38,749 bases of DNA, from the NCBI RefSeq assembly GCF_001942495.1, contig NZ_MKZS01000001.1:6399088-6437836 (forward strand). Direction: 5' to 3'. A program made the translations under genes and the position numbers. Numbering within the stretch: the first letter of the stretch is position 1; the number at the start of each line of letters is the position of its first letter. The notes under the pieces are model-generated. The model was not told the DNA's origin. It worked only from the letters and a program-made list of their open reading frames with translations, and ran no database searches. Source of the DNA: Moorena bouillonii PNG. GTDB taxonomy: Bacteria; Cyanobacteriota; Cyanobacteriia; Cyanobacteriales; Coleofasciculaceae. Positions 8,657 to 30,200 of this stretch are shown piece by piece.

Positions 8657-11600
8657 TTATCTAATTTGTAAGAGATACTTGTTCAATTGTGCAGTTAGAC
8701 CCTCAACTTGGGGGGCTTTCATAATGGTGTAATGGTCTCCAGTAATAGTGTGAGTTTGGAGATCACCATTAACTAGAGAACCCCAGCCGTGGGTTGGGTC
8801 TTCAATTACTGCTGGGGAAGTTTGACTAGCATTTATAAGGAGAAGTGAACCTGGATAAGCTTTTGGTTGATAATGAGAGTTTGCCATCATATTTGCTTGA
8901 AAAACTTCCCATAAAGACCGCATTTGCTCTATTTCTAGGTCTGATGGCAATATCCCTTGCTGTTTGCCTTGCTCAAATAGATGCTTGACTTGCATCGGAT
9001 GTTCAAGTTGTCTAAGTGTTTCATGGGATATATCTAACTCTTGGCCATAGAGACCTCCCAAATCTTGAGCCAATTGATTTACTATCATGGCTTGATCTAT
9101 TTCTGAAGGTTTCCGCATTACAGTGGGTGCATAACTGTCTATTAAAGTTAGAAGAGCCACTGGAGTATTTTTAGCCTGTAATTGTTGTGCCATCTCATAA
9201 GCAATTACACCTCCCATAGACCAGCCTATTAGGTGTAATGGTCCTTGGGGTTGAATTGGTTTTATTGCCTCAATATAATGGGATGCCATCTCCTCAACAG
9301 AAGTTAAGGGTTGCTGTTGTCCATCTAAACCGAGAGATTGTAAACCATATACTGGATAATCTTGAGCTAAATGACGAGCTAACTCTGCATAACACAGGAC
9401 ATTACCACCAACCGGGTGAATACAGAATAATGGAGGTTGGTTTCCACTGGTTTTAATGCCCACTAAGATGGGATTTTGTGTATTTACTGAAGAACCCAGA
9501 AGGCTGGCTAGTTGTTCAATGGTGGGACTTTGGAAAAGGGTGGCTAAAGGTAAATTGATTTGGAATTGTTGTTGAATTTTTGACATCAGACGGACAGCAT
9601 TAAGGGAATGACCGCCCAGTTCAAAGAAGTTATCTTGTACTCCGACAGAGGTGAGATTCAAAACTTCTGACCAGATTTGAGTCAGTTGAAGTTCTATGGT
9701 TGTACATGGTGCGACGTATTTATGTTCTCGGGTAATTTTCCCATCAGGTGCGGGTAGGGCAAATCGGTCTACTTTGCCGTTTGGTGTCAACGGTAGAGTC
9801 TCCAAAATCACTAAGGCACTGGGCACCATGTATTCTGGTAATTTCGTTTTGAGGAAGCTAGATAATTGTGAAACCAGATGGCGATTCGATTCTTGCTTTA
9901 AGGGATTGTTGGCATAAGCACTCCAGGCTTTGATTGGAACAGTTGCTTCCAAGTTTGGAATTACCCTTTGGGAGTCACAGGCCGATTCATTACGTATAAA
10001 GATGGCATCATAGCAACCATTGCCGCCAGTACCAGACCAAGTAATATGTACCGAATAAGGTAATTCATCCTTCAAATTCCATAAATTGTCCGGCTCTACC
10101 CCTATGTGTTTTTTCTCCTGCAAAATCTTACGCAATTGACCTACAGTTTCGAGTTTCCTGAAGTCATCAAGCTCTTGAACAAGTGTGACTTCTTCTTGCA
10201 AACGAGCATTAGGGATGTGCTTAATACCAACCACCTCTGGCTTCTTATCTAGTAAAATTCGTTTGATAGCTGATAAGTTTAAACCCTCTTGATCATAGTC
10301 AAGCCATTCGGGGGTGACTGTGGCACATACTTCCTGGCCAACATGAAGAATTACATCGTAACGGAACTTAGTTAGCTCATTCTGATAATCCCCAGGTTTC
10401 AACTGGATTTGAACTTGTTTTATTTCTGGGATATATTCCCTTAAAGCTAGAAAGAAGGCTGGGTCGATCACCAATTCTTCTTCTTGCTTAACAGCTGTTT
10501 TTACCTGCTGCCTCAATTTGTCTATGGTTAATGAATCTGAGGCGCGATCAAACTTAGTTGCGGTATGAAACGTTTCTAATAATGGCAAGCTGCGAACATC
10601 ACCGACAAATAGGAAACCTCCTTTCGTTAAACTATTTACTGCACCTTTCAAAACTTCTATCAGGTAATCGATGCTTGGAAAATACTGCACAACTGAGTTA
10701 AGGATAACAGCATCGAATCGGCCTTTTTCAATGCCTGTAAAATCATCAGCCAGTTTTTGGCTTAGGCTTACATGTGAATAGCTATCTTCAAACGGTTGGA
10801 TTTGCTGCTGAACATAATCTAAAGCTACCTTACTAAAATCGGTACCATGGTAACTCAAACAATGAGGAGCAATCTGGAACAGCAACATGCCTGTGCCACA
10901 ACCGATCTCCAACACATGTTTGGGTTGCCAAAAGATAATTTTTTCAACAGTGGAATCTACCCATTGACGCATTTGCTCCTTAGGGATTTGGTTACCTGTA
11001 TAGCTGCTTTTCCAACCTAGAGTGTTGTAACTGGTTTGTTGAATTTCTACTGCGTCACTGTAGATATTATTATATATTCCTTGCCATTGCTCAATCTGTG
11101 ATGATTGTAATGGATTTTCGACAATGGATTGATTGTTTTGCTCACAAACTACATAAGCAACTAAGCGTTTGTTACCAGGAATATCTTCTCGGGCAATGAC
11201 TGCAGCTTGTTGGATGTGGGGGTGGGTGGACAGGACTGCTTCGATTTCTCCGAGTTCAATACGGAAGCCTCGAATTTTGACTTGGTTATCGATCCGACCG
11301 AGAAATTCAATGTTACCGTCTGGTAGGTATCGCGCCAGGTCTCCGGTTTTGTAGAGTCGTTCTGTTTTGGAACTACAGAAGGGGTTGGTAATGAATTTTT
11401 CTTTCGTTAGTTCTGGGCGATTGAGGTATCCTCGGGCTAGTCCATTACCTCCTATGTATAATTCTCCAGGTACTCCTATGGGTACTGGTTGGAGGTGGCG
11501 ATCTAGGATGTAGATTTGAGTATTATTAATGGCTTTTCCAATAGGAACAAAATAACCACTAAAATTATGATCTAATTGAGCTAATGTAGACCAAATAGTT

Positions 11601-14089
11601 GCTTCTGTCGGACCATATAAATTCCATAAATGTTGGCTATTTTTAATTAATTCACCGGCAACCGTTTTATCTAATGCTTCTCCACCACATAGAATTTTTA
11701 ATTGTTTGTTTCCTTTCCATCCTGCAGTTAACAATAATCTCCAAGTTGCCGGAGTGGCTTGCATTGTAGTTACTTGGTAGTTGTCTAGAATTTGTGCTAA
11801 AAGCATTCCATCTGTGGCAATTTCTCGGCTTATAACAACTAAGCGTGCACCGGTAATTAAGGGAAGATATAATTCTAATCCAGCAATATCAAAAGATAAG
11901 GTAGTAACTGATAGAAAAATATCCGTTGATTCTAATCCTGGTTTTTGCTGCATTGATTCAATAAAGTTCACCAATGCTTTGTGGTTAATTTGTACACCCT
12001 TTGGTTTACCAGTAGAACCAGAAGTATAAATCACATAAGCCAAATTATCCGAGTCAACCCCAACTTCAAGATTATCTTGACTATATTCCTCAATTGCTCC
12101 CCATTCACTATCCAAATAAACCATCTGTGTGTTATGTGAGGGCAAAGATTCTACTAGAGACTGTTGAGTCAACAATACTTCCACACCTGAATCTTCTAAC
12201 ATATAACTCAGTCGTTCTGAGGGATAATTAGGATCCAGGGGTACATAAGCACCACCAGCCTTGAGTATCCCCAACAGTCCTACCACCATCTGTACAGAAC
12301 GTTCAACACAAATACCTACCAATACTTCTGGTCCTACTCCTAAGTTTTGTAGGTGATGTGCTAATTGGTTAGCCCTTTGATTTAATTGACGGTAGGTCAA
12401 CTGTTCTTGCTCAAACACCACAGCTATAGCATCGGGTGTTTTTTCTACCTGCTCTTCAACTAACTGATGAATACATTGATCGATAGGATAGTCACTGGCA
12501 GTATCATTCCACTCCACCAACAGTTGATGGCGTTCCCTTTCACTCAACAACGGTAACTCTCCCACTCTAAGTTGGGGATTGTCCACAATTGCTGACAACA
12601 AGTTCTGGAAATGAGTAGCCATCCGTTTAATAGTAGACCTATCAAACAAGTCCGTGTTGTACTCCCATGTCCCCACCAATCCCATCTCTGTTTCCATCAT
12701 TGACAGGGTCAAATCAAACTTAGACGTAGTACTCTGTTGATTTAACTCACTCAAACTCACACCTGGTAAGTCTAATGTCCCCATCGGTGCATTCTGCAGC
12801 GCAAACATCGCCTGGAACAGGGGAGAATGACTTAATGACCGTTGGGGTTGCAATGCTTCGACTACCTGTTCAAACGGTACATCCTGATGTTCATAAGCTT
12901 TGAGTGTGGTGTCCCTGACTTGTGTAAGCAACTGAGAAAAACTGGGATTATCGTCAAAATGGGTTCTCAATACCAGGGTATTGACAAAGAAGCCAATTAG
13001 TGGCTCTATGTCACGGCGATTGCGATTGGCTATAGGTGTACCAATTAAAATATCTTCTTGACCGCTGTAACGATGTAGTAAAGTCCCAAACGCCGCTAAC
13101 AGAGTCATAAATAAGGTAGTACCACTATCTCGAGACAGGGTTTGCAACTTCTGGGTTAATTCAGTATTTAAACTAAAACTTTCAGTCCGACCCTGATAAG
13201 TTGGCGCAGTTGGGCGAGGGTAGTCAGTAGCTAACTGTAATAATTTGGGAGCACCCTCTAATTTCTGTTTCCAGTAATTAAGTTGGGTTTCTAGTATTTC
13301 TCCACTTAACCATTGTCTTTGCCAAAGGGCAAAGTCAGCATATTGAATCGGTAATTCCGGTAACGGGGATGGCGCTCCTACACAAAAGGCTTGATATAAA
13401 CTTGATAGTTCTTCGATTAATATTCCCATCGACCAACCATCCGATACGATGTGGTGCATGGTCAGCACTAACACATACTCACTGCTGTCTAGTTGCCATA
13501 ATTTACAGCGGATTAATGGTGCTACCTCTAAGTCAAAGGGAGTTGTTGCTTCACGTTGTACTTCTTGCTTTAAGATAGTCTCCCGTTCTGGTTCTGGGTA
13601 TTGTTGTAGGTCTACTACATTGATGTTAATGGTGCTGTCGGAATCAATTACTTGTATTGGTTTGCCATTAATAGTGGAGAAACTTGTCCGTAGTACTTCG
13701 TGACGATTGATTATTTCTGATAAGGCTTGTTCTAGGGCTAACACATTTAGGTTACCGGTGATTTGTAAAGCACCGTGCTCAATATAAGGAGCTTTTGACC
13801 CTTCAAGTTGATCAATCAACCACAGTCGTTCTTGACTAAAAGATAGGGGTAATTTTTGGTCTCTAGGAATAGCTTTAATTGGTGGGTAATTAGTATTATA
13901 ACCTTGACCATTTTGTTGCAAAAAAACTATAATTTCTGCTTGACGTTCAGCTATTTGTTGGCGTAGCGCAGGGGTTATAGTTCCTTTATTAACACGACAA
14001 AGGAGTTTTTCACCGTTGGTTGAGATATTAATCCCCTGGTTGTGAAGCCAAGATATAAATTCAACTATATTTACCTGGTTGTTATTCAT
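8657..14089 (-). CDS. NRPS termination module: docking-C-A(Gly)-N-MT-PCP-TE
   Basis: An 1810-residue single-module synthetase that should add and release the last residue of a peptide. Residues 1-60 resemble a TubC-type N-terminal docking domain. The condensation domain (about 75-515) has intact HHIVSDG (H212-G218). The adenylation domain (about 530-980) has YTSGSTGKPKG and YGPTEATIW; its specificity residues D734, I735, L738, Q777, L800, G802, L824, I832, W833 and K1439 read DILQLGLIWK, the classical glycine code. A methyltransferase (about 1000-1380, VLEIGCGTG at 1059-1067) is inserted in the A domain before its C-terminal subdomain, as in N-methylating modules, so the residue is probably sarcosine. 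PCP Ser1495 (LGGHSL) and TE Ser1624 (GWSMGG), Asp1651 and His1786 are present. It needs an upstream acyl/peptidyl donor, but only a ligase remnant precedes it by 2 bases. Confidence 0.95.
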   Translation of the reverse strand: MNNNQVNIVEFISWLHNQGINISTNGEKLLCRVNKGTITPALRQQIAERQAEIIVFLQQNGQGYNTNYPPIKAIPRDQKLPLSFSQERLWLIDQLEGSKAPYIEHGALQITGNLNVLALEQALSEIINRHEVLRTSFSTINGKPIQVIDSDSTININVVDLQQYPEPERETILKQEVQREATTPFDLEVAPLIRCKLWQLDSSEYVLVLTMHHIVSDGWSMGILIEELSSLYQAFCVGAPSPLPELPIQYADFALWQRQWLSGEILETQLNYWKQKLEGAPKLLQLATDYPRPTAPTYQGRTESFSLNTELTQKLQTLSRDSGTTLFMTLLAAFGTLLHRYSGQEDILIGTPIANRNRRDIEPLIGFFVNTLVLRTHFDDNPSFSQLLTQVRDTTLKAYEHQDVPFEQVVEALQPQRSLSHSPLFQAMFALQNAPMGTLDLPGVSLSELNQQSTTSKFDLTLSMMETEMGLVGTWEYNTDLFDRSTIKRMATHFQNLLSAIVDNPQLRVGELPLLSERERHQLLVEWNDTASDYPIDQCIHQLVEEQVEKTPDAIAVVFEQEQLTYRQLNQRANQLAHHLQNLGVGPEVLVGICVERSVQMVVGLLGILKAGGAYVPLDPNYPSERLSYMLEDSGVEVLLTQQSLVESLPSHNTQMVYLDSEWGAIEEYSQDNLEVGVDSDNLAYVIYTSGSTGKPKGVQINHKALVNFIESMQQKPGLESTDIFLSVTTLSFDIAGLELYLPLITGARLVVISREIATDGMLLAQILDNYQVTTMQATPATWRLLLTAGWKGNKQLKILCGGEALDKTVAGELIKNSQHLWNLYGPTEATIWSTLAQLDHNFSGYFVPIGKAINNTQIYILDRHLQPVPIGVPGELYIGGNGLARGYLNRPELTKEKFITNPFCSSKTERLYKTGDLARYLPDGNIEFLGRIDNQVKIRGFRIELGEIEAVLSTHPHIQQAAVIAREDIPGNKRLVAYVVCEQNNQSIVENPLQSSQIEQWQGIYNNIYSDAVEIQQTSYNTLGWKSSYTGNQIPKEQMRQWVDSTVEKIIFWQPKHVLEIGCGTGMLLFQIAPHCLSYHGTDFSKVALDYVQQQIQPFEDSYSHVSLSQKLADDFTGIEKGRFDAVILNSVVQYFPSIDYLIEVLKGAVNSLTKGGFLFVGDVRSLPLLETFHTATKFDRASDSLTIDKLRQQVKTAVKQEEELVIDPAFFLALREYIPEIKQVQIQLKPGDYQNELTKFRYDVILHVGQEVCATVTPEWLDYDQEGLNLSAIKRILLDKKPEVVGIKHIPNARLQEEVTLVQELDDFRKLETVGQLRKILQEKKHIGVEPDNLWNLKDELPYSVHITWSGTGGNGCYDAIFIRNESACDSQRVIPNLEATVPIKAWSAYANNPLKQESNRHLVSQLSSFLKTKLPEYMVPSALVILETLPLTPNGKVDRFALPAPDGKITREHKYVAPCTTIELQLTQIWSEVLNLTSVGVQDNFFELGGHSLNAVRLMSKIQQQFQINLPLATLFQSPTIEQLASLLGSSVNTQNPILVGIKTSGNQPPLFCIHPVGGNVLCYAELARHLAQDYPVYGLQSLGLDGQQQPLTSVEEMASHYIEAIKPIQPQGPLHLIGWSMGGVIAYEMAQQLQAKNTPVALLTLIDSYAPTVMRKPSEIDQAMIVNQLAQDLGGLYGQELDISHETLRQLEHPMQVKHLFEQGKQQGILPSDLEIEQMRSLWEVFQANMMANSHYQPKAYPGSLLLINASQTSPAVIEDPTHGWGSLVNGDLQTHTITGDHYTIMKAPQVEGLTAQLNKYLLQIR

Positions 14090-14091
14090 AA

Positions 14092-14448
14092 TTAAATCTC
14101 TATTATTTCTTCATCTATTGCCAGATTATCTGGAACTTGTAATACTCTATGATCTACCTCTAGATACTCAGTTACATTCTTAAAGCCCATAAAAGCGCTA
14201 ATCAACTCTAATCCAGAAGGGTATAACAGTAAAACTCGTTCTCCTTGCCATTGCTGGAGATGGGCTGCGTACGCTGTTGTTTGTCTATCTAATTCGCCGT
14301 AAGTAAGACTCCCTGACTCAGTTTCTCCGTTTTCCAGAAAGATATAGGCTTGCTGATTAGGCATCGCTTGCGCTCTGTTGCCTAATAAATCCACTAAACT
14401 CAAGAATTTCGACTCCCCATTGGGGAAATAATTTACACAACTCGTCAC
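14092..14448 (-). CDS. Remnant of a fatty acyl-AMP ligase gene with a foreign acidic tail
   Basis: A 118-codon frame ending two bases before the NRPS start. Residues about 15-90 match the N-terminus of FAAL-type adenylating enzymes: LVDLLGNRAQAMPNQQAYIF, LTYGELDRQTTAYAAHLQ, and GERVLLLYPSGLELISAFMG. Homology stops abruptly there. The P-loop, the adenylate-forming core and the C-terminal subdomain (normally about 450 more residues) are absent, so no activity is expected. The last residues, from TEYLEVDHRV to LAIDEEIIEI, do not look like FAAL. They resemble an acidic C-terminal docking tail, fitting the docking domain that begins the next protein. I infer an in-frame deletion of a once much larger megasynthase gene; an assembly collapse is the alternative. 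Confidence 0.75.
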   Translation of the reverse strand: MTSCVNYFPNGESKFLSLVDLLGNRAQAMPNQQAYIFLENGETESGSLTYGELDRQTTAYAAHLQQWQGERVLLLYPSGLELISAFMGFKNVTEYLEVDHRVLQVPDNLAIDEEIIEI

Positions 14449-15187
14449 TATGCTATTCCCTTAACAAGCAGTTCAAAAAAGTCAGATACCAATAATTATT
14501 TAATCAAGTTGTCAGTCCACAGTCAAGCCAAAGAACTAGTTGAATTCCTTAACTTACTCACGGCTCTTAACTAGCCTGAGTTTGTGCTCGAGCCAGGTGC
14601 TTATTAGGTCAGGGTATTCCCACCTTACTAAGCGCGATAAGTGAGTGATTGTGCTTTGAAAGTGAGAGCCTCGATCAGGGTTATATAGTAAGACCACACG
14701 ATCAGGCAAGTTAATCGACCAATAATGCTTTCAGCGATCAGGCGGTTGGGTGGCAAATCCCTAGTTTTCGTGTTCTGCGATCGCCCTGATTGCCAAGTTG
14801 TGGTAAAACCATAGTTATTCTACTATATATCTCTGGGACAGGTGTGAATTTTTGAAACAAAACTTTACAAAATTCCGCCCATTTTTCCGATATTTATAGG
14901 GCTCTTCCGGACTTAACTATGCCGTCATGTTAGTTAAAACAACGAAGGATTGGTAAGACTGGGAGGAGCATCTGATGATACTAGAAAAACTCCATTCCTC
15001 AGGTAACTATGATGGGGTTAAATACCAGGTAGTTTTTCGATTAGTTGATGCCGCCGATTATGGCATTTTTTAATCCTGGTAACGGATGTTAATTGTTGGG
15101 ATCAGATAATATTTAATTATCCAATATTATTTCCCGAAAAAACAACACTCGATAGCTTGTCGATTAGATTAAATTAAAAGCAAAAAA
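14449..15187. other. Upstream region of the FAAL/NRPS remnant
   Basis: About 740 bases with no long gene. It presumably contains the promoter for the minus-strand FAAL/NRPS pair, although no convincing -35/-10 pair was picked out. A HIP1 octamer lies near 14778. The only coding candidate is a 32-codon plus-strand frame at 14975-15073, listed separately. Confidence 0.5.
14975..15073 (+). CDS. Possible small ORF (32 residues) with a strong Shine-Dalgarno
   Basis: The ATG at 14975 is preceded by GGAGGAG (14962-14968) with six bases of spacing, one of the best ribosome-binding sites in the window. The frame encodes 32 residues, starting MILEKLHSSGNYDGVKYQ and ending ADYGIF before TAA. It is amphipathic, without a membrane segment or recognised motif. 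It may be a real small protein, a leader peptide, or the surviving 5' end of a gene lost together with the neighbouring megasynthase. Confidence 0.35.
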   Translation: MILEKLHSSGNYDGVKYQVVFRLVDAADYGIF

Positions 15188-15218
15188 AATAGCCGTAGAT
15201 ATTATTTCTACGGCTATT
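15188..15218 (-). terminator. Rho-independent terminator of the small gene at 15324-15533
   Basis: AATAGCCGTAGA (15188-15199) and TCTACGGCTATT (15207-15218) form a perfect 12-bp stem with a 7-base loop. On the minus strand the stem is followed by a run of T residues (the complement of A at 15182-15189), the textbook intrinsic terminator layout, about 105 bases past the stop of the small gene. Its presence supports that gene being transcribed. Confidence 0.85.
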
Positions 15219-15323
15219 TCAGTGCTGCAAACGCAATTGTATTGTCTATCAGTTTCCGAATCAATCCGGATGTAATCCTACCGGATCTGATCAGGGGGGA
15301 AACCCCCCCAGAAATTTAAGGTA

Positions 15324-15533
15324 TTAACCCCAAGTCTTCGACTTGGTTGCAAAACTAATTACTTGCCCTGGAATGCCGGTCGGCTGCAAAGGGCTCCAGT
15401 CGGAAACCTTAGCATACCCCAATGCACAAAGGCCGTAAATAGTATTAATTACTGCTTCAGGAGAGCCCTTAATGGACTTAATACGTTGTTTCTTTGGGTT
15501 ATTGTCTTGATTCGGAATAAAGTCTGTAGACAT
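15324..15533 (-). CDS. Small conserved hypothetical protein
   Basis: A 69-residue protein from the ATG at 15533; a TTG at 15560 would add nine residues. The N-terminus (MSTDFIPNQDNNPKKQ) is polar and probably disordered. It is followed by a compact block, KSIKGSPEAVINTIYGLCAL and then GYAKVSDWSPLQPTGIPGQV, ending FATKSKTWG. The pattern of a helix, GYA, and WSPLQPTG looks conserved, and similar short proteins occur in cyanobacteria, but I know of no function. A strong intrinsic terminator follows. It shares the strand of the FAAL/NRPS pair but is separated from it by that terminator. Confidence 0.7.
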   Translation of the reverse strand: MSTDFIPNQDNNPKKQRIKSIKGSPEAVINTIYGLCALGYAKVSDWSPLQPTGIPGQVISFATKSKTWG

Positions 15534-15560
15534 GAGTAAAAAACTAAATGACGTTTGCAA

Positions 15561-15988
15561 TTATTATTGTAATGATTATATTTTTAATTGTCAATAATTT
15601 TGATGTTTTTTTTGAGGTATTTTGATGATAAATATAAAAAAAATAATTAAAAAGTTAGCTTTTTGCGCCGTGTTACCAAAGATTTTTTATGGAATTTTAT
15701 TTCATAATATATAATTAATTATTTATTGTAATATCTGTATTTTAGCTACCTAATTTATTTATTTTATTATTGTATTTTTTCGAGAGTGACACCAGATAAA
15801 TAGACTTCTTCTGTCACTCCTAAATCTTGGTAGCAGGAACAAACTTAGTCCCGGAAGCAGTCAAACTAGTGCAGGGGGGCAGAAATAATACCAATTCTTG
15901 AAAGTAGGACTACAGATCCAGATGGCAAAATGTCAATTTGAACCGAAAATCGCTACCCTAACTGGTAATAACCTTCTTTAGTTTCCTT
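15561..15988. other. AT-rich divergent intergenic region
   Basis: About 430 bases between the small minus-strand gene and the plus-strand TPR gene. Bases 15561-15780 are very AT-rich with poly-A and poly-T runs, as expected for a divergent promoter region. No ORF, tRNA or strong hairpin was seen; no promoter is assigned with confidence. Confidence 0.5.
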
Positions 15989-17260
15989 ATGGCTACCTTG
16001 CGCTTACATCTTCTCGGACCCAAACTAAGCAAGTGGATGATCATAGCATTATCCGCTGCTATACTCCCGTTATGTTTTGCTAGTGTGACCTTGTCCCAAT
16101 CAAGTGATAATGATAATCCGAATCCATTGGAACTGACTGCTCCTGATCCCCTCCTTCCTTCGTTATCCCCAGAGGAACCTCTCAACCCTTCCGAACGTTC
16201 TAGACTCAACCAAGCTTTGGATGAACTGAATGCTGAAGCTCAAGCTGAATTCAAAGCTGGTAATCAATCCAAAGCCTTTGACATCTGGTATCGGGAAATC
16301 CGACTGCGGCGAGTGCTAGGGGATCCAGTGGCAGAAGTGCAAACCTTGGGCAGAGTAGGAGGAGTTGCCTGGAATGAAAATAATAAGCAGTCAGTGCAAC
16401 TAATTACTGCACGGTTGGAAGAGATTCAGCAGGAAAATGAAGCAGAAGACTCGATCAATCTGCCACTCTTAAAAGCTTTGGGTAAGGCTTATGAACAGAT
16501 CCGAGTGCCAGGACAAGCTTTGACAGTCTATGAGCAAATTCTCGCTGATGCTCGAAACGAGGGCGATATGGCAGCGGTTGAGGCTACCTTGAAGACTATG
16601 GGTGAATTGCACATGGCTTGGTTTGATTATCCCAAAGCAGCAGAAACCTATGAGGAATTACTGGCTCAAGCTCAGAATCAAGCTCAGAATCAACGCGATG
16701 TTCCTTTGGAACCGCTTCGCGAACGCATAAATGAAGAAGTGGCTTATTTACAACAGCTAGCTTATATCTACGACCAAGACCAACAACCAGACCAGGCATT
16801 GCCCAAAAAGCAGCAATTAGTGGACATTTACCTCAATCAAGGCAATGATACCCAGATTCCAGCCCTGAAAATTGCGATCGCATCTGACTACAACGCCCTC
16901 AATCAACCAGAAAAAGCTAGTCAAACCTATCAAGAAGCCTATTCCTTAGCCTGGTCTCTACAGCAGTTTGCCCATGCTAGCGAAGCACTACAACCTCTAG
17001 CACAACTTTACCTTACCTCTAAGCAGCCAGAGTTTGCCTTGCAAGTTTATGAGGTTTTGCTTCAAGTTGAACAACAGTCCTATAATTATTATGGCTTGAT
17101 GAATACTTACGACAAAATTGGTCAAGTTTATCTGGATATGAATAACTATCCTCAAGCCTTAGCAGCATTTCAAAAGGGGCTAGACTTAGCTGAATCATTG
17201 CAGCATCGAGAAGCTTATTTTGTCAATAAAATTCAGATAGTGAATCGGCAAAATTTGTAG
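15989..17260 (+). CDS. Exported TPR-repeat protein
   Basis: A 423-residue protein with a signal peptide: basic MATLRLHLLGPKLSKW, then the hydrophobic core MIIALSAAILPLCFASVTLS (17-36). A Pro/Ser-rich linker follows. The rest is helical repeats of TPR character, for example KAFDIWYREIRLRRVLGDP, AYEQIRVPGQALTVYEQILA, DYPKAAETYEELLAQAQ, EKASQTYQEAYSLAWSLQ and NYPQALAAFQKGLDLAESL, at least seven units in total. No catalytic domain is present, so it is probably a periplasmic scaffold or adaptor. A short local duplication (AQNQ AQNQ, near residue 230) suggests a replication slip. The start fits the signal peptide, though no clear Shine-Dalgarno is visible. Confidence 0.85.
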   Translation: MATLRLHLLGPKLSKWMIIALSAAILPLCFASVTLSQSSDNDNPNPLELTAPDPLLPSLSPEEPLNPSERSRLNQALDELNAEAQAEFKAGNQSKAFDIWYREIRLRRVLGDPVAEVQTLGRVGGVAWNENNKQSVQLITARLEEIQQENEAEDSINLPLLKALGKAYEQIRVPGQALTVYEQILADARNEGDMAAVEATLKTMGELHMAWFDYPKAAETYEELLAQAQNQAQNQRDVPLEPLRERINEEVAYLQQLAYIYDQDQQPDQALPKKQQLVDIYLNQGNDTQIPALKIAIASDYNALNQPEKASQTYQEAYSLAWSLQQFAHASEALQPLAQLYLTSKQPEFALQVYEVLLQVEQQSYNYYGLMNTYDKIGQVYLDMNNYPQALAAFQKGLDLAESLQHREAYFVNKIQIVNRQNL

Positions 17261-25431: not shown

Positions 25432-25818
25432 ATGACACAAAAATATACAGAAGCGGACACAGAAGCGTTTTACGATCACGAAGACAGCATGTATCGTAGC
25501 TTCTGGGATTCTGAAGGCAGTTTACATTGGGGCTATTTTGACAACTTAGCCGACGCTCGTGCTCAAGACTTTGTCCCAGCTTGCCATCGTTGGAATGAAT
25601 ATATGCTCGCCTGCAGTGGGCTGACTACTGAATCTCGGGTACTTGATATCGGTTGCGGCAACGGCAACACCGCTATCTGGCTAGCCCAGCAGACAGGATG
25701 TGAAGTTGTCGGCATTGACATCAGTGCAGTCCGCGTTGACAATGCCAAGGCATTAGCTCAGGAGTATCCCTCCCTACACCTGTCCTTTCAGAAAGCATCA
25801 GTATACTCAATCGAGTAG
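25432..25818 (+). pseudogene. Truncated SAM-dependent methyltransferase
   Basis: A 128-residue frame that starts like a full methyltransferase and stops after the first third of the fold. The N-terminus has FYDHEDSMYRSFWDSEGSLH and HWGYFDN. SAM motif I is intact as RVLDIGCGNGNTAIWLAQQ (about residues 68-86), followed by the acidic-loop strand VVGIDIS. The frame then ends at SVYSIE. Families with this start (Methyltransf_11, including small-molecule and betaine-type N-methyltransferases) are usually about 270-290 residues. No continuation is seen in the next 80 bases, in any frame I checked by eye, before the next gene. The substrate-binding half is gone, so it is probably inactive. Confidence 0.8.
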
Positions 25819-27527: not shown

Positions 27528-28847
27528 ATGACAACCCTACTTCGGCAACTCAAAGCCGCTTTTCGGATCGAATCAGTTGCAGTGACCAACAACGGTGTAC
27601 AAGTCACTTGGAAAGATGGTCATCACAGCTTTTACCATAATCTCTGGCTGCGGGATGCTTGCCACTGTCCCGAATGCTTCCAGCGGGATACATTGAGCCT
27701 TAACAGCTCAGAAGGGGAAGGACATGACCCCCTGAAAATGCCACTCAATCCCATCACTGAAGCGGTCAAGATCGATCGTGAAGGCAATTTGGATATAGTC
27801 TGGGGCGGTCAAGAACCTGGACATCACAGTGTATTCGATCCATCTTGGCTGCGAGTTCACTGTCAAACAGACCCCGCCCTCAAACAGCGACGAAAACCCC
27901 AACTGTGGGATTCATCAGTGTCCATCCCTCATTTTGATTACCACGAAGTGATGAAAGACGATTGGGCACTGTTGCTGTGGTTGGACAAGATGCTGGAATT
28001 GGGAGTAGTCATCATTGACAACGTGCCCAAGAATCGAGAAAGTTTTCAGGCACTGATAGAGCGGATTGGACCGATCCAAGAACGATATCATCCCACCCAT
28101 ATCTTTACCTTGGATACAGCAAACAAACTGGCAGGGAATATTCACCACGCCTATCAGTATATGAAACGTTTAGATAATCACACAGACCATGTATCTTACA
28201 ACGTTCCTCCCAGACTGCAATTTCTCGGATGTATCCAATACGATAACCCAGACAATGACAAACAGGCTTATTCTACCCTAGTGGATGGGTTCAAAATTGT
28301 CGAAGTTCTCAGAACCCAACAGCCAAAATTCTTCGAGTTGCTGACCACAGAGTATGTGCCAACAGGTCGCCGTCGCCTTGGTGTAGAAGAAAAGGTATCT
28401 AAGCATGAAATTGGCACCAAGAAGTACCAATGGGAAACTTATCATCGCCAGCATGTAATTAATTTGGATGAAACCGGTGAAGTCTACCAGATTCGTCACC
28501 ATGAAAAAGACCGAGTGCCACTAGAGGTTTCTCCTGATAAGATTCAAGACTTATATGCAGCCTACCAAGCATTTACGGCACTAGCTGAAGCTCCTGAATA
28601 TAACGCCGAATTTCTGATCGCTCCGGGACAAGTATTAGTTAACGACAACTGGCGATTACTCCACGGGCGTACCGCCATTCATAATCCTCAGCTGCGACGA
28701 GTTTTACTGGGAGCCTACATGAAACCAGAAACATTCCGTAGCAGACGGCGACTGTTACTAGGCAAAAAAAGCGGTATGTCAGATATCTGGTTAATGGGAT
28801 GCTCAGACCGTGCTTTAGAAATTCTGGCAGACCGCACCACAATCTAA
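27528..28847 (+). CDS. Gamma-butyrobetaine-hydroxylase-like Fe(II)/2-oxoglutarate oxygenase, copy 1
   Basis: A 439-residue cytosolic enzyme with the two-part layout of gamma-butyrobetaine dioxygenase and trimethyllysine dioxygenase. The N-terminal zinc-binding domain (about 10-115) has C45, C47 and C50 in DACHCPEC plus a His at 99/100, the same CxC-x2-C spacing as human BBOX1. The TauD-type jelly roll follows (about 130-420). Its iron ligands are H218 and D220 (DNHTD) and H379 (DNWRLLHGR), and an Arg about 12 residues later should hold 2-oxoglutarate. All catalytic elements are intact, so hydroxylation of a small ammonium or amino-acid carboxylate is expected; the substrate is unknown. It is clearly paralogous to the next gene and coupled to panD. 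Confidence 0.9.
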   Translation: MTTLLRQLKAAFRIESVAVTNNGVQVTWKDGHHSFYHNLWLRDACHCPECFQRDTLSLNSSEGEGHDPLKMPLNPITEAVKIDREGNLDIVWGGQEPGHHSVFDPSWLRVHCQTDPALKQRRKPQLWDSSVSIPHFDYHEVMKDDWALLLWLDKMLELGVVIIDNVPKNRESFQALIERIGPIQERYHPTHIFTLDTANKLAGNIHHAYQYMKRLDNHTDHVSYNVPPRLQFLGCIQYDNPDNDKQAYSTLVDGFKIVEVLRTQQPKFFELLTTEYVPTGRRRLGVEEKVSKHEIGTKKYQWETYHRQHVINLDETGEVYQIRHHEKDRVPLEVSPDKIQDLYAAYQAFTALAEAPEYNAEFLIAPGQVLVNDNWRLLHGRTAIHNPQLRRVLLGAYMKPETFRSRRRLLLGKKSGMSDIWLMGCSDRALEILADRTTI

Positions 28848-28895: not shown

Positions 28896-30200
28896 ATGAC
28901 CACGCTACTTCGACAACTCAAACCTTCTTTTCGCATCGAATCCATAGCAACCCATGACAATGGTGTAGAGATCACTTGGAAAGATGGCCATCAAAGCTTT
29001 TACCATCATCTCTGGCTCCTAGATAGCTGTCGCTGTCCTAAATGCTTTCAGCGAGATACCTTAAGCCTCAATAATAGTGGACATGACCTCCTCAAAATTC
29101 CTTTAAACCCAACTCCTCAAGAGGTGACAATTGATCCTGAAGGCAATTTGGATATTGTCTGGGGTGGTCAAGAAACAGGGCATCACAGTGTATTCGATCC
29201 TTCCTGGCTACGAGTTCATTGTTACGATGACCCAGCCCTTAAACAAAAATCAAAACCTCAACTTTGGGATGCATCAGTATCTATCTCTTATTTTGATTAT
29301 CATGAGGTGATGAATGATGACGACGTTTTATTGTCCTACCTGAATCAGCTCGTCGAACTAGGGGTAGCAGTAATTGAGAATGCTCCAAATGACGAACAAA
29401 GCTTTCGGGCATTGGTGGAACGGGTGGGGCCTTTACGACAACGTTATCATCCCACCAATGTATTTACTATGGATAGAAAGAACGCAGTTGCTCAGGCTAT
29501 CCAACATTCTTATCAATTGGGACGTTTAAGAAATCATACAGACGTTACTGCCTACGATATTCCCACTGGAATCCAATTTCTGCAATGTACCCTCTACGAC
29601 AACCCGGATAACGACAGACAAGCCTATTCCACCGTCGTTGATGGTTTCAAATTAGCAGAGGTAATCAAAACAGAAAACCCCTACTTCTTTGAGCTACTTA
29701 CCACAGAATATATACCAGCAGGTCGCCGACGACTGTCTGTGGAGGAGAAACTATCGGAAAATGATTCCAGCGCTCGGAAATACGAATGGGAAGCTTACCG
29801 GCGTAATCATCTAATTAACTTGGATGAAAATGGAGAAGTGTATCAGATTCGGTATAACCACAACACCAGGATACCCCTAGAGGTTTCCTACGATAAAATT
29901 CAAGACCTATTGACAGCCTACCGAAGATTTGCCCAACTCTTACAAGATCCTGACTATAATGCCGAATTTCTACTGACTCCCGGACAGGTATTAGTAGTTG
30001 ACAACTGGCGAGTGCTCCATGGACGTACCGGTATCTGGAGTCCTTTGCTGAAACGAAGCTTGCTAGGAGCCTACTTGGAGGAAGAAACCTTCCGCTGTAG
30101 ACGGCGAATTTTGCTAGGGGAGAAAACTGGGATGTCAAACCTGTGGTTAATGGGATGCTCAGACCGTGCTTTGGAAATTCTCGCAGATCGCTATGTTTGA
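28896..30200 (+). CDS. Gamma-butyrobetaine-hydroxylase-like Fe(II)/2-oxoglutarate oxygenase, copy 2
   Basis: A 434-residue paralogue of the preceding gene, arisen by tandem duplication; most of the length aligns without gaps (for example both start MTTLLRQLK and both contain GHHSVFDPSWLRVHC and WLMGCSDRALEILADR). The zinc Cys triad (DSCRCPKC, 45-50) and iron ligands H214, D216 and H375 (DNWRVLHGR) are intact. Residues around the iron differ: NHTDVTAYDIPTGIQFLQC here against NHTDHVSYNVPPRLQFLGC in copy 1, and HGRTGIWSP against HGRTAIHNP. This suggests a different substrate or reaction step rather than simple redundancy. AGGAGC precedes the ATG. Strong hairpins follow the stop. Confidence 0.9.
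   Translation: MTTLLRQLKPSFRIESIATHDNGVEITWKDGHQSFYHHLWLLDSCRCPKCFQRDTLSLNNSGHDLLKIPLNPTPQEVTIDPEGNLDIVWGGQETGHHSVFDPSWLRVHCYDDPALKQKSKPQLWDASVSISYFDYHEVMNDDDVLLSYLNQLVELGVAVIENAPNDEQSFRALVERVGPLRQRYHPTNVFTMDRKNAVAQAIQHSYQLGRLRNHTDVTAYDIPTGIQFLQCTLYDNPDNDRQAYSTVVDGFKLAEVIKTENPYFFELLTTEYIPAGRRRLSVEEKLSENDSSARKYEWEAYRRNHLINLDENGEVYQIRYNHNTRIPLEVSYDKIQDLLTAYRRFAQLLQDPDYNAEFLLTPGQVLVVDNWRVLHGRTGIWSPLLKRSLLGAYLEEETFRCRRRILLGEKTGMSNLWLMGCSDRALEILADRYV

Follow-up and report, generated by a model that had tools for sequence, protein, structure and literature searches.

The window analyzed here is a 38,749-nt stretch of the Moorena bouillonii PNG genome (contig NZ_MKZS01000001.1, positions 6,399,088 to 6,437,836). 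Its minus strand carries an NRPS gene preceded by a short ORF that begins like a fatty acyl-AMP ligase (FAAL) and ends in a docking-like tail; two bases separate the stop codon of this ORF from the ATG of the NRPS (Table 1). The C, A, PCP and TE domains of the NRPS lie within one open frame, as in a terminal module, and the TubC_N domain precedes the C domain at the N-terminus, as in TubC-type docking domains. A PDB search with the TubC_N domain returned the AerJ docking domain (3.6e-7) and EpoB (0.0033), TubC itself reaching only 0.16. A first-pass annotation of this DNA had described the orphaned NRPS frame as intact, and this held: all 1,810 residues are open, and Pfam finds every terminal-module domain. 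Judged by eye from motif positions, the A domain may be glycine-like in specificity; no claim is built on this.

Elsewhere in the window, two adjacent genes (27528-28847 and 28896-30200) have very similar starts and look by eye like a tandem duplication, and a methyltransferase-like ORF of 128 aa (25432-25818), again by eye, looks truncated. No Rfam family reached its gathering score in the window; four weak matches at 14.4-16.1 kb, to a Plasmodium snoRNA, an animal microRNA, and Salmonella and Streptococcus sRNA families, were disregarded. A plasmid collection gave 74 matching records, none covering 80% of the query; among the best 10 of the 74, nine matches were annotated as FAAL, NRPS or AMP-binding protein and one had no feature.

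Table 1. Features of the window, and stubs at TubC junctions in Moorena genomes (G000, the genome of the window; G001 and G002, two further Moorena genomes; G003, Moorena sp. SIO3I8)
Feature	Position	Strand	Evidence or remark
NRPS, single open frame, 1,810 aa, TubC-C-A-MT-PCP-TE	8657..14089	-	ORF and Pfam
Thioesterase (TE) domain	8690..9436	-	Pfam
PCP domain	9497..9688	-	Pfam
Methyltransferase (MT) inserted in adenylation domain	10610..10912	-	Pfam
Adenylation (A) domain core	11423..12457	-	Pfam and identity comparison
Condensation (C) domain	12518..13858	-	nearest relatives follow FAAL-PCP in G001 units A and B
TubC_N (beta-hairpin) docking domain	13913..14068	-	Pfam, 2.9e-14, 53.3 bits, cut-off 26
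118-codon chimeric ORF, FAAL start plus docking-like tail	14092..14448	-	GTG start
28-residue tail with stop codon; probably what is left of the C-terminus of a carrier protein and its docking SLiM	14092..14178	-	
LAIDEEIIEI, last ten residues, docking-tail-like	14095..14124	-	score 10.5
Junction, end of similarity to FAAL DNA	14182..14187	-	nucleotide alignment; identical in SIO3I8
FAAL N-terminal fragment, residues 1-88 of about 600	14185..14448	-	protein, PDB and nucleotide comparison
Promoter-side upstream region common to SIO3I8	14449..15205	-	similar DNA before three G001 FAAL units
Stub	window		same event in G003
Stub	G000:C1:736895		PKS bits, then decayed carrier end NSKSNNWIKVEL
Stub	G001:C3:1250507		half a PCP, 94-aa frame
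Stub	G001:C3:1239693		short repeats, then VKDNNWIEVEL
Stub	G001:C7:168559		KS start ending ACSSSLVAVH, out-of-frame join to IKENNWIKVEL
Stub	G002:C327:15461		FAAL start of another family with stops, then DNIKENNWSKVEL
Stub, weak	G001:C5:29584		ends VDFIEGVL

The short ORF joins a FAAL fragment to a docking-like tail

The FAAL part of the ORF comprises the first 88-89 residues of the ligase, joined in frame to the 28-residue tail. From residue 1 or 2 to residue 89 it is 80-82% identical to three FAAL starts of Moorena genome G001. In a PDB search, ORF residues 10-89 matched the start of 7r7f, a solved 572-aa ligase labelled 'Polyketide synthase', with an E value of 1.4e-16, and the match then ended. 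Among the best NCBIfam matches was the fatty-acid--AMP ligase PRK05850 (3e-8, residues 17-88), far below its full-length cut-off, as expected of a fragment; Pfam AMP-binding on residues 25-88 (8.9e-7, 28.5 bits) fell just below its cut-off of 29.9. At the nucleotide level, similarity to the three G001 FAAL genes stops at about 14184. These comparisons confirm the earlier description of some 90 FAAL residues running into a tail two bases before a TubC NRPS. They also dispose of the idea that the tail is ordinary FAAL sequence, since FAAL similarity ends at the junction in both the nucleotide alignment and the PDB match.

The full FAAL adenylating fold (about 580-600 aa) is absent, residues 1-89 being all that is kept; by sequence comparison, the ORF is a FAAL fragment and FAAL itself is not present. 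Pfam found no PP-binding domain in the 118 aa at E values up to 0.01. Lacking a carrier domain and keeping just the initial seventh of a ligase, the short protein should load nothing. No other FAAL start in the genome of the window is closer than 54% identity to the fragment.

Is the tail a docking tail? TubC NRPSs were considered at 46 loci. At 37 of these the upstream frame was 250 aa or longer; four of the 37 were dropped because that frame was not a carrier end abutting the NRPS, and removal of near-duplicates left 30 donor C-termini, from which a ten-position score was built. The window tail scored 10.5. Only two of 181 background C-termini reached this value, those of L093/L102 and G002:C327, which are docking tails in their own right, so that the window tail outscores the other 179. 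The background came from frames of 150 aa or more at the fetched loci, some of which are not real genes. In leave-one-out scoring, 8 of the 30 known tails fell below it, although some pairs among the 30 share their last ten residues, which raises their own scores. Shuffled versions of the window tail reached its score in 28 of 20,000 trials.

In an alignment with donors, the tail lines up with their last PCP helix, though weakly, and with their SLiM; its EEIIEI pattern is offset from the common EEIEL. It sits at the extreme C-terminus, as a SLiM does, on an ORF that lacks the carrier of a SLiM-bearing donor. Its position matches too: immediately upstream of 8 of the 10 TubC NRPSs in the genome of the window lies a long frame that ends, as judged by eye, like a carrier and has a docking-like tail, the exceptions being the window itself and G000:C1:736895. 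By score and alignment, then, the tail resembles the docking tails (SLiMs) of carrier-bearing donors, as the first-pass annotation had proposed. A search of 388 genomes of the order with the 28 residues gave matches in nine at E values up to 1. Seven are weak (0.15-0.98); the two real ones (both about 8e-13) are the window's own genome and Moorena sp. SIO3I8, so the exact tail is known from the window cassette only.

FAAL units of G001 and the likely parent

The three FAAL starts of G001 lead consecutive units (L026-L027, G001:C1:1371712-1391530), with similar upstream DNA about 0.5-1 kb before each. Their domains were read from sequence and BLAST, with no profile search. Unit A (2,008 aa) reads FAAL-PCP-C-A-PCP-TE, and unit B (2,057 aa) is similar; both hold the PCP and C domain within one protein, with neither SLiM nor TubC. 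In unit C, FAAL, acyl-CoA dehydrogenase and ACP are followed by PKS and PKS/NRPS genes. FAAL starts of the window's family thus lead other designs as well, in unit C and in a 2,322-aa frame in Symploca.

A dispersed repeat lies on the promoter-side edge of the window cassette (15181-15640), with copies in all four Moorena genomes, the best of them 81-88% identical, and with fragments between the G001 FAAL units. A terminator-like hairpin (15186-15220) sits at the edge of the repeat.

The window cassette resembles units A and B in its FAAL start, upstream region and C domain, and unit A also in its TE (89.5% identical). Its C domain is 80% identical to those of A and B, as against 43% to that of unit C, which is fed by a PKS; next-best relatives, at 67-70%, include some fed by an NRPS module in cis. 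In contrast, neither A nor B has docking domains, each being one single protein, and the A domain of the window shares only 62-63% identity with theirs, its nearest relatives (78%) being modules in G001:C11 and in a Symploca genome (G016). Because the A domain is nearer to relatives fed by an NRPS in cis than to A and B, the window NRPS is, on these identities, a mosaic, and the argument from the C domain carries moderate weight.

Since the closest C domains follow FAAL-PCP, a FAAL-PCP-SLiM donor would suffice as the parent of the ORF, and we infer that it is the simplest one. In unit A the PCP ends near residue 665, which would put the loss at about 575 residues (about 1.7 kb). The first-pass annotation had posited an in-frame deletion of many kilobases; that something was lost between the two ends still stands, but a FAAL-PCP donor needs only about 1.7 kb. 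Neither the tail search of 388 genomes of the order nor comparison with related Moorena genomes turned up the uncollapsed parent that the annotation had suggested looking for.

The same junction in a second Moorena genome

Moorena sp. SIO3I8 carries the same junction at a different site (contig NZ_JAAHHW010000024.1). The alignable unit spans window positions 8670-15205 and is 97.1% identical; outside it the neighbors differ. The SIO3I8 copy of the ORF has an extra 24-bp in-frame insertion, and its NRPS is the same. This insertion sits within a GCGATCGC site (L021, about 10175-10206) and keeps the frame; a near-identical short sequence occurs in a TPR gene of the window (16688-16728), and there are many dispersed matches in Moorena genomes.

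Most of the sequence flanking the SIO3I8 cassette shares 97-98% identity with G001, two stretches reaching 92% and 95%, and the G001 counterpart of this site contains the three FAAL units. The window's own flanks are 94-95% identical to DNA of SIO3I8 and G001 but are located elsewhere there: about 168 kb separates the two flanks in G001, and in G002 and SIO3I8 they fall on different contigs. No clean empty site was found in these three genomes.

The 165 substitutions between the two units are clustered in patches of up to 19 per 100 bp, separated by identical tracts of 1,025, 531 and 445 bp; the last (between 13817 and 14263) covers the junction, the tail and the TubC domain. Because neighboring genes diverge by about 5%, the identical tracts, judged by this contrast, were shared more recently than the split of the genomes, that is, by recent exchange. 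With the G001 units as proxies, the donors of the divergent patches were not identified. The dN/dS ratios between the two genomes (0.39 for the NRPS, 0.29 for the ORF) were set aside as evidence of selection, since the patchy differences between identical tracts reflect exchange. For the same reason, shared retention proves no selection. The shared junction does make chance and misassembly unlikely.

Stubs recur at TubC junctions in Moorena

The four Moorena genomes gave 35 TubC_N matches at E values up to 0.001: 10 in G000, 13 in G001, 10 in G002 and 2 in SIO3I8 (the assemblies of the last two consist of hundreds of contigs). A donor, taken here as an upstream frame that has 330 aa or more and ends like a carrier, precedes 24 of them; two of these donors are partly readable, one has an atypical tail, and two lie 100-170 nt from the NRPS. 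Three junctions, one near a contig end, have neither donor nor stub. The remaining eight are stubs, at most seven of them distinct and one weak (Table 1). Two of the seven distinct stubs join a FAAL start to a docking end: the window and G002:C327:15461, whose FAAL start shares 95% identity with an intact FAAL of that contig. Apart from the event in the window and G003, the six stubs give frames of 11-94 aa only.

The cut-offs for these junctions were chosen after the first cases had been seen. Stubs were called by likeness to intact donor ends, G001:C5:29584 by eye to L169 only; four of them score 2.5-3.0 and are not distinct by score alone, a donorless locus (L084) having reached 4.5. We claim no rate, as the comparison outside the genus comprised 40 rows (one place twice), mostly the best match per genome and at lesser depth. 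Short frames with docking-like ends were also noted at L039 and L099.

The acceptor side is better preserved. The NRPS adjoining each of the seven stubs is one open frame of 1,408-1,825 aa, and TubC is followed by a full-length Pfam C domain in six of the seven. The exception is G001:C5:29584, where the A domain starts at residue 362 and the first C domain seems shortened. The earlier reading of the window as a snapshot of assembly-line decay is thus half right, since the NRPS is open in both genomes and other stubs also adjoin open NRPS frames.

One group of junctions shares tails of the NWIEVEL type. Its members share 73-100% identity over the final 30 nt that lead up to the NRPS start. Farther up, L168 and L176 are unrelated, L171 is unrelated after about 50 nt, and L151 and L172 keep more. 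All that remains upstream of the NRPS start in the stubs L168 and L176 is about 30 nt, and these are not in frame with any start piece. The stop codon of the tail overlaps the NRPS start codon in this group (ATGA), so the bases may be kept because translation of the NRPS needs them. At G001:C3:1234000-1264836 (L180, L181), one PKS donor accompanies three similar TubC NRPSs with a near-identical docking start, one behind the donor and two behind stubs.

Origin of the junction

What is observed is a chimeric ORF with a SLiM-like tail, an open NRPS behind it, and the same junction elsewhere in a second species. We regard the ORF as somewhat more probably than otherwise a deletion or recombination scar, left when a FAAL-PCP-SLiM plus TubC-C-A-MT-PCP-TE cassette lost the body of its first gene. 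The parent would have comprised two genes, FAAL-PCP-SLiM and then the NRPS. The lost part would run from the FAAL after residue 88-89 through the PCP up to its last helix, leaving the FAAL promoter and start, the last 28 or so codons and the whole NRPS. Those last codons would be the docking tail and at the same time lead directly up to the NRPS start codon; translation of the NRPS probably continues through coupling, with expression from the FAAL promoter. It would lack a donor in cis and either be fed in trans by another SLiM-bearing carrier or lie idle. The outcome is best read as a docking-competent orphan NRPS. The 80-82% identity of the FAAL start to units A to C and the recurrence of stubs at six other Moorena junctions, one weak, favor this deletion. 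Against it, units A and B contain no such split donor, and the remnants at L168 and L176 fit transplanting as well as deletion.

Transplanting is the strongest rival, though we think it unlikely. Here recombination would have put a TubC NRPS, together with an old donor's last codons (the SLiM and translation-start stretch), behind a FAAL start, and a FAAL-PCP-SLiM gene would never have existed. The NWIEVEL group shows how this could look, its last 30 nt and TubC start being kept while the DNA farther up is unrelated in L168, in L176 and, from about 50 nt onward, in L171. So do the out-of-frame join of a different FAAL start to a docking end at G002:C327 and the one donor and two stubs at G001:C3. 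The mosaic window NRPS also fits, and passages of PMC12184294 describe megasynthase clusters that recombine at C and docking domains. However, an unrelated cluster would not be expected to supply C domains whose closest relatives follow FAAL-PCP, or a TE closest to that of a FAAL unit, and the reading frame across the junction is preserved.

We give little credence to a role for the 118-residue protein itself, for example as a TubC cap that selects donors or as an adaptor. The ORF has stayed open in two species despite the insertion in SIO3I8, and tail and TubC are unchanged between the genomes; yet the unchanged stretch lies within a recently exchanged tract and says little on selection, the ORF has no carrier match, and the other six stubs form only minor frames. 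Marginally less credible still is a chance acidic sequence, read after a deletion and no docking motif. The restriction of the exact tail to one cassette and its shift relative to EEIEL would suit such an origin, but the tail outscores 179 non-docking background C-termini and 8 of 30 known tails, and it immediately precedes a TubC NRPS, as donor tails do. Assembly collapse of a longer megasynthase, the annotation's main alternative, is rejected as scarcely conceivable: the G001 FAAL-NRPS units of this family are repetitive, but the same junction, within a tract of 445 identical bp, is present in the separately named SIO3I8 genome, at another locus and between other flanks and neighbors.

A broader reading is, in our view, rather doubtful. 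The docking junction in Moorena may be a portable block (the last 10-30 donor codons, the translation start and the TubC domain) that outlives its donor, with donors repeatedly cut or swapped and open orphan acceptors left that could be fed in trans. Stubs made of a start plus a docking tail show where breaks fall, and the acceptor side tends to remain open. If orphan NRPSs serve in trans, nature offers in them a test of how promiscuous docking gives rise to new lipopeptides; if they are unused, they date the decay.

Comparison with known systems

To our knowledge, studies of megasynthase loss and recombination do not usually show broken intermediates. In a narrow literature search, we did not meet the start-plus-tail stub or its recurrence at TubC junctions, and found no paper combining fatty acyl-AMP ligase, Moorena and gene cluster.

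It is already described that megasynthases lose and recombine parts while keeping their docking and C domains. For cyanobacteria, passages of PMC12184294 report evolution by loss of modules or domains and by recombination, C and docking domains being preserved or adjusted at subunit borders. The systems in those passages are working pathways, whereas the donor in the window is reduced to a stub.

The junction resembles SLiM/beta-hairpin pairs, which, in the parts of PMC9113145 that concern them, combine a short C-terminal tail on the donor with a TubC-type domain at the N-terminus of the acceptor. According to that review, contacts with the partner in one solved complex are confined to the last five SLiM residues, and SLiMs can be promiscuous. 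Unlike those pairs, the window tail sits on a FAAL fragment without a carrier and has nothing to deliver.

In Moorena itself, combinational interactions between PKS/NRPS docking domains are reported for the vatiamides in passages of PMC10127204, and vatiamide combinatorial biosynthesis is also covered in part of PMC10949194. A comparable set, which may or may not be the vat cluster, is the PKS with three similar TubC NRPSs at G001:C3. In contrast to vatiamide docking, no donor adjoins the window NRPS. The window NRPS may be idle, or it may be fed in trans, as the promiscuity of SLiM/TubC pairs and the reported combinatorial use of docking domains in vatiamide biosynthesis would allow.
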